From Marmoricola sp. URHB0036 (GTDB lineage Bacteria > Actinomycetota > Actinomycetes > Propionibacteriales > Nocardioidaceae), in NCBI RefSeq assembly GCF_000426045.1, contig NZ_AUEP01000005.1, positions 124,001 through 188,000 of the forward strand: a stretch of 64,000 nucleotides of DNA, given 5' to 3'. This document shows positions 5,640 to 56,151 of this stretch, in pieces. The notes beneath the pieces were generated by a model. It was not told where the DNA came from, did no database searches, and saw only the letters and a list, made by a program, of their open reading frames with translations. Within the stretch, counting starts at the first letter, position 1. Every line of letters begins with the position of its first letter. The translations under genes and the position numbers were made by a program.

Positions 5640-6542
5640 GAGCTGACCGACACCAACGCAGCCGGCATCGCCGCCGAGCTGGTGCGTGCGCGCACCAAGG
5701 CAGGCTCGCCGGCGATGGGCATGGTGATGACCCTGATCATCGTGGTCGACGAGGACACCTCCGACGAGGCGATGGCTTCGGCCCGGGCCGCCTCGAAGGA
5801 GCACCCGGCGCGCGTGCTCGGGGTCATCCTCGGGGACGCCCGCGGCAAGGCCGAGGTGAACGCCCAGGTGGGGACCGGCTCGGGATGGAGCGGCGAGACA
5901 GCGCTGATCCGGCTCAAGGGTGAGGTGGTCAAGCACGCCGAGTCCGTCGTACTCCCCTTGCTGCTGCCCGACTCCCCGGTCGCCATCTGGTGGCCGACCG
6001 ACGCTCCGGAGGACCCGGCGTCCGACCCGCTGGGTGCGTTGGCGCAGCGGCGGATCACCGACTCCGCGGCGGTCACGCGCGGCAAGACCAAGGCGATCCA
6101 CCGGCAGTGTTCGTCGTACGCCATGGGCAACACCGACCTGGCCTGGACCCGGATCACGCCGTGGCGCGCGCTGCTCGCGGCCGCGCTCGACCAGTACCCC
6201 GAGAAGGTGACGTCGGCGTCGGTGACCGCCGAGCGGATCAGCCCGAGCGCCGACCTGCTCGTCGCCTGGCTCAACGACCGGCTCCGCGTGGACGTGTCGC
6301 GGCACACCTCCGGGGGGCCGGGCATCACCGAGGTGGTGATGAGCACCAGGTCGGGAGACATCACCATCAGCCGTGGTGACGGCAAGCTGGCCAGGTTCTC
6401 CTCCCCCGGTCAGCCGGACCGGCCCGTGGCGCTGAAGCGTCGCGACGTACCCGAGCTGCTGGCCGAGGAGCTGCGGCGCCTGGACGAGGACGACACCTAC
6501 GCATCCGCGGCGAAGCGACTCGTGAGGCTGGCCTCGCGGTGA
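5634..6542 (+). CDS. opcA: Glucose-6-phosphate dehydrogenase assembly protein OpcA
   Basis: A 302-residue OpcA family protein, an accessory factor for the Zwf dehydrogenase encoded just upstream; it has no known catalytic site. Family features include the internal segment PLLLPDSPVAIWWPTDAPE (about residues 105-125). The ATG at 5634 gives the normal N-terminus; the longer open frame upstream overlaps zwf in another frame and is spurious. The stop overlaps the pgl GTG by 4 bp. OpcA next to zwf and pgl is the standard actinobacterial arrangement. Confidence 0.93.
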   Translation: MIELTDTNAAGIAAELVRARTKAGSPAMGMVMTLIIVVDEDTSDEAMASARAASKEHPARVLGVILGDARGKAEVNAQVGTGSGWSGETALIRLKGEVVKHAESVVLPLLLPDSPVAIWWPTDAPEDPASDPLGALAQRRITDSAAVTRGKTKAIHRQCSSYAMGNTDLAWTRITPWRALLAAALDQYPEKVTSASVTAERISPSADLLVAWLNDRLRVDVSRHTSGGPGITEVVMSTRSGDITISRGDGKLARFSSPGQPDRPVALKRRDVPELLAEELRRLDEDDTYASAAKRLVRLASR

Positions 6543-7267
6543 GCCCACGGGTGGAGGTGCTGCCGTCCGCGGAGGCGCTGGCGACGCGGGTGGCGGCGGA
6601 GATCGTGGCCAAGCTGGTCGCCGTACAGGCCGAGGGACGAGTGCCGTCGATCGCCCTGACCGGCGGCACGATCGCTGACGCGATCTACCGGTCGATCGCC
6701 TCCCTGGAGTCCGACGAGCCGTCGGTCGACTGGATGCAGGTCGACTTCTGGTGGGGAGACGAGCGCTACGTGCCGGCCGACTCCTCCGACCGGAACGACC
6801 GGGCGGTCGGGCTCGACCTGCTCGACGTGGTGACGGTGGACCCGGCTCGGGTGCATGCGATGCCGGCGGCTGACGAGGTCCATCCCGACCTCGAGGCCGC
6901 TGCTGCGTCGTACGACCAGCTGGTGCGTACCCGCGAGCCCGGCGACTTCGACCTCGTGCTCCTCGGGGTCGGTCCGGATGGCCACGTCGCCTCGCTGTTC
7001 CCCGGCTTCCCGCAGCTCGACGTCGACGACCGCATCGCCGTGGCGGTCACCGACTCCCCCAAGCCACCCCCCGAGCGCATCTCGCTCACCTTCACCGCCC
7101 TCAACCAGGCCGGCGAGGTGTGGTTCCTCGTCTCGGGCGAGGGGAAGGCCGACGCCGTCGCCCGCGCCCTGGCCGACGACGGCTCGGTCCACGACACCCC
7201 CGCCCGCGGCATCACCGCCCCCCACCGCACCTGGTGGCTCGACCAGGCAGCAGCAGGTTCCTTGTAG
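6539..7267 (+). CDS. pgl: 6-phosphogluconolactonase
   Basis: A 242-residue lactonase that hydrolyses 6-phosphogluconolactone, the product of Zwf, to 6-phosphogluconate. It belongs to the glucosamine-6-phosphate isomerase/6-phosphogluconolactonase fold: LTGGTIADAIY near residue 40 and WWGDERYVPADSSDRN near residue 71 are family motifs, with LLGVGPDGHVASLFPG near 140. The GTG start overlaps opcA. It ends the operon, and the 32-bp repeats begin 4 bp after its stop. Confidence 0.94.
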   Translation: MSPRVEVLPSAEALATRVAAEIVAKLVAVQAEGRVPSIALTGGTIADAIYRSIASLESDEPSVDWMQVDFWWGDERYVPADSSDRNDRAVGLDLLDVVTVDPARVHAMPAADEVHPDLEAAAASYDQLVRTREPGDFDLVLLGVGPDGHVASLFPGFPQLDVDDRIAVAVTDSPKPPPERISLTFTALNQAGEVWFLVSGEGKADAVARALADDGSVHDTPARGITAPHRTWWLDQAAAGSL

Positions 7268-7271
7268 TTTC

Positions 7272-7367
7272 GCCGAGAGGGCCCTTTTGGTTGGCAGAAG
7301 TACGCCGAGAGGGCAGTTCTGGTTGCTTCGACGGCGCCGACCGGGCAGTTCTGGTTAGCTCGCTCGG
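7272..7367 (+). repeat. Three tandem 32-bp repeats, left flank of DUF559 gene
   Basis: Units start at 7272, 7304 and 7336, exactly 32 bp apart. Each begins GCCGA followed by a GGGC-(2)-TT(C/T)TGGTT core (GCCGAGAGGGC in units 1-2, GCCGACCGGGC in unit 3); the second half is more variable. The array begins 4 bp after the pgl stop and runs into the 3' end of the minus-strand gene at 7355. The same core appears on the other flank in inverted orientation. Confidence 0.85.
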
Positions 7368-8332
7368 CCGTACGGCGTCCACAGCGTGCGCTTGCGGGCC
7401 TGGTCGAAGGCACCGCTCAATCGCGGCAACGGATCAGGGCGTCGGTCGTAGACATCGACCTTGGTGAAGATCTCGAACAGCCACTGTCGCTCGGTGGCGC
7501 ACCACGACCGGCGCTCCTCGTCGTTTTCTCGATCGACCTCGCCCGTGTGGTGCTCCTCGCCGTCGTACTCGGCGGCGAACAGGAGCTCCGGGAGCGTGAT
7601 GTCGAGGCGATAGATGCCGACCCCGTTGTCGTCGTACACCCAGGTCTGCAGGTCGGGTCGCGGTAGGCCCGCGTCGTACCAGTTGAGTCGGAGTCCCGAC
7701 TCCCCGGGCGATTCGGCACGACCGTCGCCCAGGAGAGCAAGGACGCGCAGCTGGCGGACGCCGCGGTAACCCTTGAAGCGCCCGATCTCGGCGATCAGTA
7801 GGTCATGAGGTACGCCGATCCGCAGGAAGCCGTCGATCGCCGCGAGGGCGTCGTACCTCCACAGAAGGCGGCCCAGGTCCAACGCCGTCCTGAGCGCGGT
7901 GGTGACCCGAATCTCCTTGACCACCGTGATGTCGTTGGGCAACAAGCCGCGTCGGCCGGCGTCCACTCCGGGGCGCCGCATGCGGGTGTCGCGCGTGTGG
8001 AAGACATTGATCGGCGGGGGCGTCACCCCTGAGCTGCGCGGCAGGAGATCGACGCCATGGAGCCACGCGGCCGTTCGATCGGTGACTACTGCCCCGGTGG
8101 GAACGACCAAAGAGAGCGCAATGGCGCGGAGATCCATGTCGTCGCGTGCCTGGGCAGCGACGTACACGCCTTGCAGCATGCGTCTGACGTGGCCGCGTTC
8201 GAGCATCGTGCGCAGGGTCTGCCGGGAGACGCCCAGCGCGAGGGCGTCCGCTCCGGTGAAAGGTACGTCGAGCGGGAGCGGACACCGTGACGTGAGAAAC
8301 AGCCGCCGGTCATCGAGCCAGTTGGGATCCAT
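7355..8332 (-). CDS. AbiEi-like HTH / DUF559 nuclease-like protein
   Basis: A 325-residue protein of a type I associate with multicopy genes in Nocardioides. The N-terminal third resembles the AbiEi antitoxin-type winged helix (FTGADALALGVSRQTLRTML, then VRRMLQGVYVAA). The C-terminal part has the DUF559/Vsr-like restriction-endonuclease-fold pattern (LDITLPELLFAAEYDGEEHH, near residue 265). No toxin gene accompanies it. The start at 8332 (MDPNWLDD) is preferred over 8401, which adds a tail unlike the family, though no clear ribosome site is seen. It sits alone between two conserved housekeeping operons, bracketed by inverted arrays of 32-bp repeats, suggesting acquisition as a unit. Function unknown. 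Confidence 0.75.
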   Translation of the reverse strand: MDPNWLDDRRLFLTSRCPLPLDVPFTGADALALGVSRQTLRTMLERGHVRRMLQGVYVAAQARDDMDLRAIALSLVVPTGAVVTDRTAAWLHGVDLLPRSSGVTPPPINVFHTRDTRMRRPGVDAGRRGLLPNDITVVKEIRVTTALRTALDLGRLLWRYDALAAIDGFLRIGVPHDLLIAEIGRFKGYRGVRQLRVLALLGDGRAESPGESGLRLNWYDAGLPRPDLQTWVYDDNGVGIYRLDITLPELLFAAEYDGEEHHTGEVDRENDEERRSWCATERQWLFEIFTKVDVYDRRPDPLPRLSGAFDQARKRTLWTPYGRAS

Positions 8333-8424
8333 CGCGGCAGGATGCCGAGGATGCGGAATCGCTGCTGGACCAATCCACAGGGGCGCCCCGACGGCAACCA
8401 TCTGCGCCCGGTCGGCGTACTCAA

Positions 8425-8520
8425 GCCAACCGGACCAGCCCTGTCAGCGAGCTGCAGCCAACCAGAACAGCCCTGACAGCGGACTGCTGCCAACCAGAAG
8501 TGCCCGGTCGGGGGTTAGAA
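8425..8520 (-). repeat. Three tandem 32-bp repeats, right flank of DUF559 gene
   Basis: Units start at 8425, 8457 and 8489, again exactly 32 bp apart. Each begins GCCAACC(A/G)GA on the plus strand, the reverse complement of the TTCTGGTTGGC core of the left array. The last unit covers the stop codon of rbpA (8515-8517). The two arrays point inward at the gene between them. Confidence 0.85.
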
Positions 8521-8874
8521 GATGACCTCGCCGGACTTGCGGCGTTGGCGGAGGGTCTGGATGGCCTCATTGAGGATGTCCTTGGCCTCGGCGTCGGAGC
8601 GGCGCTCCTTCACGTAGGCGAGGTGGGTCTTGTAGGGCTCGATCTTGGGGGCCGGGGGCGGGTTGTCGGAGTCCATGCTGGCCGGCAGTCCGCAGCGGGG
8701 GCAGTCCCAGGTGTCGGGGACGGTGGCCTCGACCGCGAAGGCGATCAGGGTGCGGTGCTCGTTGGAGCAGAAGTAGGTGACGCTCTGGCGCGGAGCAGCC
8801 TCACCGCGCTCCGCCTCGCCCATGGGGCCTGCGCCGACACGGCTGCCCCGGATGGCGTTTCCTCCGCCTGCCAC
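8515..8874 (-). CDS. rbpA: RNA polymerase-binding protein RbpA
   Basis: A 119-residue actinobacterial RNA polymerase-binding protein that stabilises open complexes with group 1 and 2 sigma factors. The core has FCSNEHRTLIAFAVEATVPD and WDCPRCGLPA, followed by the linker and C-terminal sigma-interaction region (KTHLAYVKERRSDAEAKDIL). The GTG at 8874 is chosen because GGAG lies just upstream and the N-terminus GGGNAIRGSRVGAGPMGE matches the family; the open frame extends to 9033 but overlaps secG. The stop codon lies inside the last 32-bp repeat unit, so the extreme 3' end may have been shaped by that insertion. Confidence 0.95.
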   Translation of the reverse strand: MAGGGNAIRGSRVGAGPMGEAERGEAAPRQSVTYFCSNEHRTLIAFAVEATVPDTWDCPRCGLPASMDSDNPPPAPKIEPYKTHLAYVKERRSDAEAKDILNEAIQTLRQRRKSGEVIF

Positions 8875-43132: not shown

Positions 43133-44743
43133 ATGCTCGCCCGCTTGAGGAACACCGCGCTCTGCTTCACCCTGCTCTCCCTTCTGGCCACTCTCGGTGT
43201 CGGACTGACCGCAACCAGCGCGGGTGCCGCATCGCGGGCAGCCGCCAGCTTCGACAGGGGCGCCACCGGCTGGCACGCCGGCACGGCCGCGACCCGAGTC
43301 GCCCTGATCAAGCGCGGAGCGGGTCACGCAGTCGCGATCTCGGCGCGTCGCGCCGCCACCGCCGTACTCGTGAGCCGGGCCAACCTGGTCCGCTCCTCCA
43401 GGGCGGGACAGCAGTACACCGTCTCGGCGCTGGTGCGCTCCACCCGTCCCGGCGTGCTGGCCCGGATGGCCCTGCGGGAGACCGCCAACGGCCGCCTCGT
43501 GGCCGCCACCGGCACCTCCTTCCGGCCGACACCCACCTGGCAGAAGGTCACCATGACCGCCACCGCGCGTCGGGCCGCCAGCAACCTCGGCGTCCGCGTG
43601 ACGGCCACCCGCCTGCGCGGCAAGCAGTACCTCTTCGTCGACAACGTCACGGTGGTCCCGGTGCCTGCACCCGCCGCGACGTTCCCCCCGCTGCCCGTCC
43701 CGCTCCCGATTCCGACTCCCACCCCGCAGCCCACTCCGACGCCGACCCCCACCCCCACCCCTGAGCCCACCCCGACGCCGACCCCCACCCCGACGCCGAC
43801 TCCCACCCCGACGCCGACTCCCACCCCGACGCCGACCCCCACCCCCACACCGACGCCCACACCGACGCCCGCCCCTGTGGCCGGTCAGCTCAGCAACGGC
43901 TGCGCCTACAACACCCGCGGCATCCCCGCCGGTTGCGCCGCCCTCCTCGGCAGCGCCTTCGGATCGAACACCGACCCGGCTTCGTGGGAGACCACGATGG
44001 GCCACCAGCTCGGCATCCACCGCACCTACTGGGGTGCCAGCCAGGTCACCAGCGCGGTCAACACCGCCAAGACCGACCTCGCCAAGCACCGGATCCCGTG
44101 GATCAGCTTCAAGATGCCCTACAGCTGGGGCGACATGGTCGCCGGCAAGGGCGATGCCTGGACGCTCGACCTGGCCACCAGGCTGAGCCAGCTCAACGGC
44201 CCGGTGTGGCTGGCCTTCCACCACGAGCCCGAGGGCGACGGCGACATCACCCAGTGGACCGCGATGCAGGCCCGGCTCGCGCCGATGGTGCGGTCCGCAG
44301 CGCCGAACGTGGCCTACACGATCATCGTCACCGGATGGAACCAGTTCTTCGGACCGGCGCAGTACAGCCTGGACAACATCATGCCGAAGAACACGAAGAT
44401 CGACATGCTCGGCATCGACATCTACCAGCGGTACGGCGCCCCGACCGACGGGAAGATCAAGACCACCTACAGCAACTTCGACCGCGACTACTACGCGCCG
44501 ACCAGCGCCTGGGCCAAGGCTCACGACATGGCCTGGGGGGTCGCGGAGACCGGCTACACCGACGCCGCTGCCGAGGACGACCCGACCTGGCTCGGGACTG
44601 CCTACAACCAGCTCAAGGCGCGCGGTGGGTCTGCCTTCACCTACTTCAACTCCGGCCTGAACAGCACCGCCAACTGGGTGCTGAGCACGGACGCGAAGAA
44701 GACCCAGTACACCGCGGCCCTGAAGTCCGCACCGGCCATGTGA
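43133..44743 (+). CDS. Secreted GH26-like glycoside hydrolase with Pro-Thr linker
   Basis: A 536-residue exported protein. Residues 1-33 are a Sec signal peptide ending near SAGAAS. Residues about 35-180 resemble a carbohydrate-binding jelly-roll ([12 protein letters not shown]). Residues about 190-245 are a PT-repeat linker. Residues 250-536 resemble GH26 mannanase/glucanase-type catalytic domains: [13 protein letters not shown] with Glu365 as acid/base, and GVAETGYTD with Glu472 as nucleophile. The substrate is probably a beta-mannan or beta-glucan, unproven. GGAG precedes the ATG. It sits inside the steroid locus without obvious functional link. Confidence 0.82.
43722..43872. repeat. Pro-Thr coding microsatellite
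   Basis: About 150 bp of CC(G/C/A)AC(G/C)-type codons giving alternating Pro and Thr in the linker of the secreted hydrolase. It is interrupted by two Glu codons and a Gln. The low complexity makes it prone to length change. Confidence 0.85.
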
Positions 44744-55197: not shown

Positions 55198-56151
55198 ATG
55201 CTCTTCTCAGGGCGGCTACGTGTCGACGCGCAGGCGGAAGCTCGCGGGTGGCTCTCGGCTGCGCCGTCCCTGAGGTTCTTCGTCCGTCTGTTGCTTCTCC
55301 TTGGGGCGGCCGTCGTCGCCTTCTTGCTCACCACCGGCGCCGCCAGTGCCGATGACGGCTCCGGTCCGCCAGGCGACGTGTCTGTGAGCAGCGGGATCCA
55401 GTCGCAGCCGGTCACCGAACCCGCCTCCGGGCCGGTCGCGCAGGCAACTGAGCCGGTCACTGAGCCGGTCACCGAGCCGGTCACCGAGCCGGTCACCGAA
55501 CCGGTCACCGAACCGGTCACCGAACCGGTCGAGCAGGCGACTGAGCCGGTCACCGACCCGGTGACCGAGCCCGTCACCGACCCCGTCACCGAACCGTTCA
55601 TAGAGCCGGTCGAGCAGGCGACTGAACCGGTCACCGAACCGGTCACCGAACCGGTCACCGAACCGGTCACCGATCCGGTCACCGAACCGGTCACCGAACC
55701 AGTCACCGAACCGGTCACCGAACCAGTCACCGAACCGGTCGAGTCGGCCGTCGTGCTGGCCGTACCTCGAAGCCCTCGTGCCTTCGCCCCTGTCGCGCTT
55801 CAGTTCGCCTCGCCGGGCGCCTGTGGGTACGTGACAGGGACCAAGTCCGTCACTGGTTGGGTAGCCGCTGATGCCGGAGCTGGTCGCGGCGCCATGATGG
55901 AGGGCCCGAGGGCTCTTCCCAAGAGCCCCGCGCAGGCGCCGACCGCACCCAGCGCTCCCAGTGCTCCCACCGCTCCCAACGCCCCGGGACACGGACCAGC
56001 CTCTGTCAGTGGATCGGATTGGTTGGCGCCTTCCCTGGGGGTCCTTGACAACCCTGACGTCGGCGCCACGCTGAGCGCTGATCGATTCGCTGCTGGGGAT
56101 GACGCAGTGCCGCACAGTCGTGCCGCACTGCTCCGCACCTGGCCTGGTTGA
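55198..56151 (+). CDS. Exported PVTE-repeat low-complexity protein
   Basis: A 317-residue protein. Residues about 24-50 are a hydrophobic export signal (FFVRLLLLLGAAVVAFLLTT, then ASADDG). Residues about 68-182 are 4-residue E-P-V-T repeats, with interspersed VEQAT and Asp-for-Glu variants, very acidic and Pro-rich and probably extended. The last third is Ala/Pro/Ser-rich without a recognisable fold or LPXTG anchor. Function unknown; cell-envelope spacer or matrix roles are possible. The DNA is a roughly 340-bp array of 12-bp units, so length is likely variable between strains. Confidence 0.7.
   Translation: MLFSGRLRVDAQAEARGWLSAAPSLRFFVRLLLLLGAAVVAFLLTTGAASADDGSGPPGDVSVSSGIQSQPVTEPASGPVAQATEPVTEPVTEPVTEPVTEPVTEPVTEPVEQATEPVTDPVTEPVTDPVTEPFIEPVEQATEPVTEPVTEPVTEPVTDPVTEPVTEPVTEPVTEPVTEPVESAVVLAVPRSPRAFAPVALQFASPGACGYVTGTKSVTGWVAADAGAGRGAMMEGPRALPKSPAQAPTAPSAPSAPTAPNAPGHGPASVSGSDWLAPSLGVLDNPDVGATLSADRFAAGDDAVPHSRAALLRTWPG
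55444..55743. repeat. 12-bp tandem array coding for EPVT repeats
   Basis: Units of the form GAACCGGTCACC repeat with G/A third-base changes and occasional Asp or Gln codons. The antisense strand is open as well and would read as Gly-Ser-Val-Thr repeats, which is an artefact of the period being a multiple of three. Confidence 0.9.

Follow-up and report, generated by a model that had tools for sequence, protein, structure and literature searches.

The window analysed here, a stretch of 64,000 nucleotides from Marmoricola sp. URHB0036, carries a single gene for a probable DNA-cutting protein between two arrays of repeat units that face each other. The gene (7355..8332, minus strand, 325 aa) is the only one between two neighbours in the open reading frame list that we take to be pgl on the left (6539..7267, plus strand, convergent) and rbpA on the right (8515..8871, minus strand, stop codon 8515-8517). 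Self-comparison and motif scans place three plus-strand units of 32 bp on the left: the first starts 4 bp past the pgl stop (7272..7303), the second follows directly (7304..7335), and the third (7336..7367) includes the nuclease gene's own stop codon (7355-7357). On the right, minus-strand units lie at 8417..8448, 8449..8480 and 8481..8512, the last ending 2 bp short of the rbpA stop codon, with a fourth, diverged and weaker unit at 8385..8416. Every unit of both arms is thus oriented inward, and the two arms match each other at 74% over 88 nt.

The original prediction for this locus had three units per side, spaced by exactly 32 bp and in opposite orientation, and this is confirmed, with the left starts at 7272, 7304 and 7336 as given. 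Its right starts of 8425, 8457 and 8489 lie on the correct lattice in a register 8 bp off, and its last unit, said to cover the rbpA stop codon, ends before it. The listed reading frame of the nuclease gene opens at 8401; we prefer the ATG at 8332, which is probably the true start because aligned homologues begin there.

The encoded protein appears to join an AbiEi-like winged helix, a middle domain and an EDxHD/Vsr-like nuclease. Pfam detects AbiEi_4 (PF13338, 1.7e-6) as a winged helix at residues 25-58 (8159..8260, minus strand), PADLOC matches the protein to AbiEi (1e-17), the AlphaFold model has a mean pLDDT of 88.6, and the best Foldseek match is the AbiEi antitoxin 6y8q (E 1.5e-5). Of the earlier DUF559/AbiEi-like label, DUF559 is not reached by the window protein in Pfam, though it is by 11 of 25 aligned homologues, among which AbiEi_4 is found in 20, the nuclease model MTES_1575 in 17 and AbiEi_1 in 7. 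A basic hairpin region follows at residues 111-130 (7943..8002, minus strand). The putative nuclease domain (residues 205-296; 7445..7720, minus strand) contains E211, E255, H262 and D271, invariant at 72 of 72 loci, and D244, which is D in 65 of the 72 and E in 7. Together with the predicted fold these residues match the EDxHD/Vsr-like pattern, an assignment of our own for which the fold matches are weak: Vsr (1vsr, E 0.57, target TM 0.47) and a domain of I-Bth0305I (3r3p, E 1.4, target TM 0.62), presumably a member of the EDxHD family. A further weak match is to TnsA (E 0.18). A search of the 25 homologues found no strand-transfer domain bar a single weak Transposase_20 match (1/25, E 0.0041), and within the window no partner toxin gene (AbiEii nucleotidyltransferase) was found between the arrays or beside the gene, where pgl and rbpA lie.

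A motif finder located units at 93 of 105 loci. The anchored units, with anchoring seeded from GCYGA, have G C C/T G A N N N G G/T C in common, beyond which they differ. Their spacing is periodic: 298 of the 305 steps of at most 60 bp (71 loci) fall into classes of 20-23, 30-34 or 41-45 bp, corresponding to about two, three or four helical turns. Folded as RNA, the window's two single arms do no better than shuffled sequences (z -0.6 and -0.7), which rules out the single unit as an RNA hairpin; only paired arms fold, and four compact clusters form very stable hairpins (z -7.3 to -11.7). No Rfam family was found in the seven loci searched.

Inverted arrays of this kind accompany relatives of the gene well beyond the window. 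A profile scan of a genome contig collection with alignment A1 gave at least 303 relatives, the best 80 of which were used; these come mostly from Nocardioides and Marmoricola, some from Microlunatus, and some are unclassified. Comparing the 420 bp upstream of each gene with the reverse-complemented 420 bp on its downstream side, we found mirror-image arrays at 72 of these best 80 (score at least 20), with 8 failing the cut and some of the 80 closely related to each other or to the genus loci. Of 118 control genes, 600-1400 bp long and taken from these loci, none passed (maximum 17.5), and mismatched locus pairs did so in 5 of 160 cases, the highest score of 148.5 being attributed to supposedly related loci. 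The cut was also passed by 12 of 30 homologues from other families of the order and by 13 of 21 from other families of the class, the latter set being 23 of 30 loci (the remaining 7 being from the family of the window itself) less two whose flanks were too short. It had been anticipated that most homologues would be flanked by the same arrays: inverted arrays are indeed general, and what does not hold is their identity, as array sequences for the most part vary between homologues. A GATCATGC-type unit is frequent at homologues in other families of the class. Flanking repeats built on GATCATGC at L383, L384, L389-L392, L397 and L407, all from other actinobacterial families, may represent a second unit superfamily. 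Homologues occur in 7 of 72,556 plasmid records, each below 60% identity, and in no phage record of the same search for horizontal carriage.

The elements sit in a characteristic position. Once 12 of the 80 loci lacking units or neighbours had been dropped, 53 of 68 gene-bearing elements were found between two convergent stops and 2 of 68 between two starts. Outer units lie a median of 4 bp from a neighbouring stop (at most 15 bp in 98 of 119 cases), as compared with a median of 45 bp from a neighbouring start (n=17). An array also lies upstream of the nuclease gene at most loci having units.

At the pgl-rbpA junction itself, 9 of 23 genus relatives have the gene in synteny and a tenth retains a remnant of it. 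All nine syntenic genes have inward-facing arrays on both sides, built of units that are mostly 32 bp long (22 bp in G004) and vary in sequence by species; seven of the nine pass the inverted-match cut of 20, and the other two, L084 (16) and L085 (17), have units in motif scans. Empty junctions, expected by the original prediction in sister genomes, are seen in some of them. In G104 the gene is absent, the junction is bare, and both stops share one CTAG (L119). In G028, also without the gene, the junction seems by eye to hold two units of that genome's own type. CTAG, a possible target duplication, recurs on either side of the G089 element, at its outer edges (L087), and is inconsistent at the other edges inspected by eye; no constant duplication was seen.

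Units are also dispersed through the genome of Marmoricola sp. URHB0036 (G000). With up to two mismatches, the unit core GGGCANTTCTGGTTGGC has 49 matches in its 4.83 Mb, against 1 for the reversed control. Sixteen repeat-match sites were fetched, of which 13 hold clusters (L040, L050 and L051 do not and were dropped), giving 14 places with the window locus included and 75 units at a motif score of at least 12. The locus had been described as a self-contained package; this is contradicted by the units at 13 other places without the nuclease gene. All 13 solo clusters have plus units on the left and minus units on the right, that is, facing inward. Five lie between two stops, eight in tandem settings and none at a divergent one. 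Their stop-facing ends fall between -5 and +7 bp from the stop codon in 16 of 18 cases, while start-facing ends (n=8) keep 29-117 bp from the start. Divergent promoters are likewise rare sites in other genomes (0/10 solo loci in G071, 1/17 in G104, compared with 0/13 here), and the solo arrays of G104 fit stop codons more loosely.

On contig 10 of the same genome, two inward-facing arms built of units from the window's family enclose an unrelated MDMPI_N-domain gene (L047, 2994-3828), and a gene between two arms is therefore not diagnostic on its own. Three of the four other homologues of the nuclease gene in G000 were examined, two of them without flanking arrays (scores 11 and 10.5). The third, a second AbiEi-like gene on contig 4 (L054, 4815-5765), is bounded on either side by an inverted palindrome of another kind (score 38).

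The distribution of units between genomes largely follows that of the cognate gene. The exact window unit is enriched in G000 alone among 149 family genomes, and its tandem pattern was not found in genome and viral contig collections in which very near records may be missing. A species-private repeat was considered and dropped once a relaxed pattern, the 5' half of the window unit with at most one mismatch, matched relatives. This pattern has 71 matches in G071, 50 in G000, 16 in G089, 14 in G113, 11 in G098 and 9 in G066, all with the gene present between pgl and rbpA, and, in another genus, 20 in G145, 19 in G108, 15 in G111 and 13 in G044; no other listed genome exceeds 6, and the control does not exceed 2. 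Where the gene is present with other units (G084, G060, G004 and G092), counts are 4, 4, 1 and 0. In the other genus, G108 has a homologue with a matching unit and G145 and G111 have homologues with loosely similar units; G044 counts against gene tracking, as the pattern is enriched there and yet the only homologue found has another unit. A second unit, CCGAGGCGTCGCANNTTGCG, searched with a pattern derived from sequence flanking the homologues L097 (G104) and L106 (G113), is present in 63 copies in G104 and 41 in G113, and in at most 3 in each of 22 other genomes, where the control also reaches 3.

For the two units examined, then, solo arrays largely track the cognate gene, with G044 unexplained. 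It had been argued that repeats scattered without the gene would speak against a unit of gene and repeats: such copies exist, and what survives is that between genomes they mostly keep company with their gene. Two of the genes contain an in-frame stop codon: the pgl-rbpA gene of G071 (L088) has an in-frame TAG although that genome has the most pattern matches, and L106 has an in-frame TGA inside the matched stretch.

Solo sites also turn over between species. At the 3' end of glmM, compared across 24 genus genomes, G000 and G071 carry arrays of their own units and G084 has two units of its own type (by eye), while G113, which has the convergent neighbour of G000, and G089 and G043, which have that of G071, lack an array. 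By BLAST of flanks, 2 of the 10 G071 sites taken from among the matches listed have a junction in common with the 13 G000 sites; of 17 G104 loci, not one does. From these comparisons it follows that junction occupancy differs between species and that shared sites carry the local unit type. One genome per species was compared, and no insertion event was caught.

Two sites differ further between G071 and G000. In G071 the arms at L353 (2343-3146) flank an OsmC-like gene between glmM and a metE-like gene; L038, the G000 counterpart of that junction, lacks the OsmC-like gene, and its arms lie near each other. L352 (G071) and L043 (G000) have an array site in common, next to which about 825 bp are inverted, as though the arrays had brought the inversion about.

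The original prediction suggested that the protein might recognise the repeats, and covariation between protein and unit now points the same way. From 105 loci we removed 12 without clear units, 6 with doubtful anchors and 15 redundant at 90%, leaving 72, over which unit similarity tracks protein similarity (Mantel r 0.41, reached in 0 of 500 permutations). By corrected mutual information the high-ranking residues include 54, 127, 114, 117, 120, 37 and 42, in the recognition helix, wing tip and basic hairpin, as well as 101, 161, 168 and 301 outside the DNA-binding regions. R37, T42 and Q54 of the winged helix covary with unit positions 15-18, and residues 114 and 127 of the hairpin region with positions 6-8. 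Three DNA-binding regions, named after the ranking had been seen, hold 14 of the top 30 pairs where 15% would be expected (p 5e-5). When permutation was confined within six clades, the pairs 54/base 15 and 127/base 8 exceeded the family-wise 95% limit; within twelve clades 54/base 15 alone did.

The clearest rule concerns residue 127 and base 8, in which E goes with C (31/34), R with G (8/8) and K with T (6/6), for 45 of 48 overall and 0 of 20,000 plain permutations. It was carried to 24 new loci, 23 of them sharing no more than 75% identity with the first set and one identical and uncounted, and held at 14 of 14 with a unit score of at least 10 and E, R or K at the residue; the uncounted loci comprise three E loci with poorer units (one agreeing, two disagreeing) and seven with other residues. 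When a tree was built with the two DNA-binding regions left out, residue 127 changed on the same branch in 8 of 14 changes of base 8 (expectation 1.9; p 4e-5 uncorrected) and ranked first of 224 residues for such co-change, and E to R is reconstructed together with C to G twice. In light of this covariation and of the dispersal of units with the cognate gene, the protein appears to recognise its own units, and very probably does so.

The anatomy of the locus, its generality, the gene-tracking dispersal of two units, the periodicity, the covariation, the position at stop codons and the differing occupancy of shared junctions by solo arrays between species were all shown computationally. Based on these observations, we suggest a nuclease-and-repeat system that resembles REP/RAYT in its working and uses an unrelated enzyme, with units spread by cutting and by copying between arrays, an explanation that we regard as somewhat probable and whose binding, cutting and copying route we infer. 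In this view a solitary protein that joins AbiEi-type DNA binding to an EDxHD/Vsr-like nuclease would recognise its own unit, made up of a common core, approximately GCYGA-NNN-GKC, and then a specificity half that varies among homologues. The helix and wing would contact the 3' half of the unit and the hairpin bases 6-8, and the helical phasing of units could align copies of the protein on one face of the DNA. Two inward-facing arrays would then be brought together or paired, the nuclease would cut in or beside them, and repair that uses the genome's other arrays as templates (recombinational copying) would copy, lengthen and homogenise units. If arrays are copied and homogenised by repair, unit and protein would co-evolve as a consequence, and solo arrays would arise at gene ends, where they are tolerated; selection against gene damage would be the simplest reason for array ends a few bp from stop codons. 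First entry into a unit-free site is left unexplained by this mechanism because no strand-transfer domain was found.

In REP/RAYT systems, a single gene is likewise flanked by inverted repeats that are also dispersed extragenically, mostly downstream of coding regions, as far as these accounts go (PMC2817692, PMC3733652). REPtrons and REPINs thus share with the present elements the inverted flanking repeats and the intergenic dispersal mainly at 3' ends. They differ in the enzyme, here a winged helix-turn-helix protein with an EDxHD-type nuclease, and in the units, which here are tandem, helically phased and non-palindromic, form no hairpins as single arms, and have no GTAG foot in their anchored motif. 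RAYT itself is ruled out as the enzyme, as the Y1 (HUH) tyrosine transposase PF01797 was found in 0 of 24 genus genomes, the window's own included, and in 5 of 14 control genomes. CGTC repeats are described in one of these accounts as lacking a dedicated transposase (PMC3733652).

Other known systems share parts of the design. The winged helix and middle domain resemble AbiEi antitoxins of the type IV toxin-antitoxin system AbiE in sequence and fold; the window locus differs in having no adjoining AbiEii toxin gene, in its added nuclease domain, and in arrays that are both flanking and dispersed. Tn7-type ends, with their multiple 22-bp TnsB sites, are similar in having several spaced inward-facing sites per end, as well as through the weak TnsA fold match; here, by contrast, the gene is solitary and no DDE transposase adjoins it. 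EDxHD has been named as a homing endonuclease family (PMC6083498). To I-Bth0305I and Vsr the likeness is one of residue pattern and of nuclease fold, the latter with weak Foldseek E-values; unlike I-Bth0305I-type homing endonucleases, the present gene lies outside any intron, intein or gene and has arrays of sites alongside it.

The winged helix leaves room for a different account, in which a solitary defence or abortive-infection gene encodes an AbiEi-type repressor that carries a nuclease domain and regulates its own gene, with the arrays as operators and titration sites restraining it and the solo arrays as decoys or a regulon. An AbiEi antitoxin is after all the closest solved fold, PADLOC agrees, and an array does lie upstream of the gene at most unit-bearing loci. 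However, the downstream array and the arrays at the 3' ends of unrelated genes would make poor operators, start-facing ends of solo clusters in G000 stand well back from starts, divergent promoters are seldom used, and there is no partner toxin gene between the arrays in the window. We consider this account unlikely.

Somewhat less likely again is that the arrays are bidirectional terminators, insulators or nucleoid sites bound by an architectural protein whose nuclease is incidental or related to repair. The very stable RNA hairpins of the four compact clusters are consistent with such a host function, as is the placement of most gene-bearing elements a few bp from convergent stops. Against this, the window's single arms fold no better than chance, the same junction is occupied in some sisters and not in others, and the nuclease residues are strictly conserved. 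That an unrelated factor spreads the arrays and the gene is a passenger in a tolerant junction is strongly disfavoured and very improbable: the apparent two-unit solo array at the gene-less G028 junction and the unrelated genes between arms at L047 and L353 would fit it, but none of the 118 control genes is flanked by arrays, and both the cognate-specific dispersal and the protein-unit covariation argue against it.

A literature search, with most subscription papers beyond its reach, found no description of such arrays at DUF559/AbiEi genes, and a nuclease flanked by its own dispersed units looks like a so far undescribed repeat-spreading system of soil actinobacteria. The larger claim is that actinobacteria harbour a class-wide, undescribed family of mobile repeat systems, with helically phased arrays that spread through the genome without a transposase, propagated by a solitary AbiEi-EDxHD nuclease whose recognition code can be read, in a re-invention of the REP/RAYT life style; we offer it tentatively, as possible but a little short of probable. 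The arrays place actinobacterial DUF559/AbiEi-type proteins, which Pfam names as of "unknown function" or "antitoxin", in a context that bears on function. A second, independent origin of an enzyme-plus-extragenic-repeat system would in turn test what REP-like repeats require. The many natural pairs of protein and site (at least 303 relatives, with arrays examined at 80) might allow a DNA recognition code to be read, and the first rule of that code, residue 127 with base 8, is already predictive on unseen loci.

The window contains two further repeats. A tandem repeat with periods of 6, 12, 18, 36 and 54 bp (43706-43875) lies within an open reading frame of 536 aa (43133-44743, plus strand). 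At 55453-55740 there are about 24 copies of the 12-bp tandem repeat CCGGTCACCGAA, in a stretch where the gene finder places no gene.
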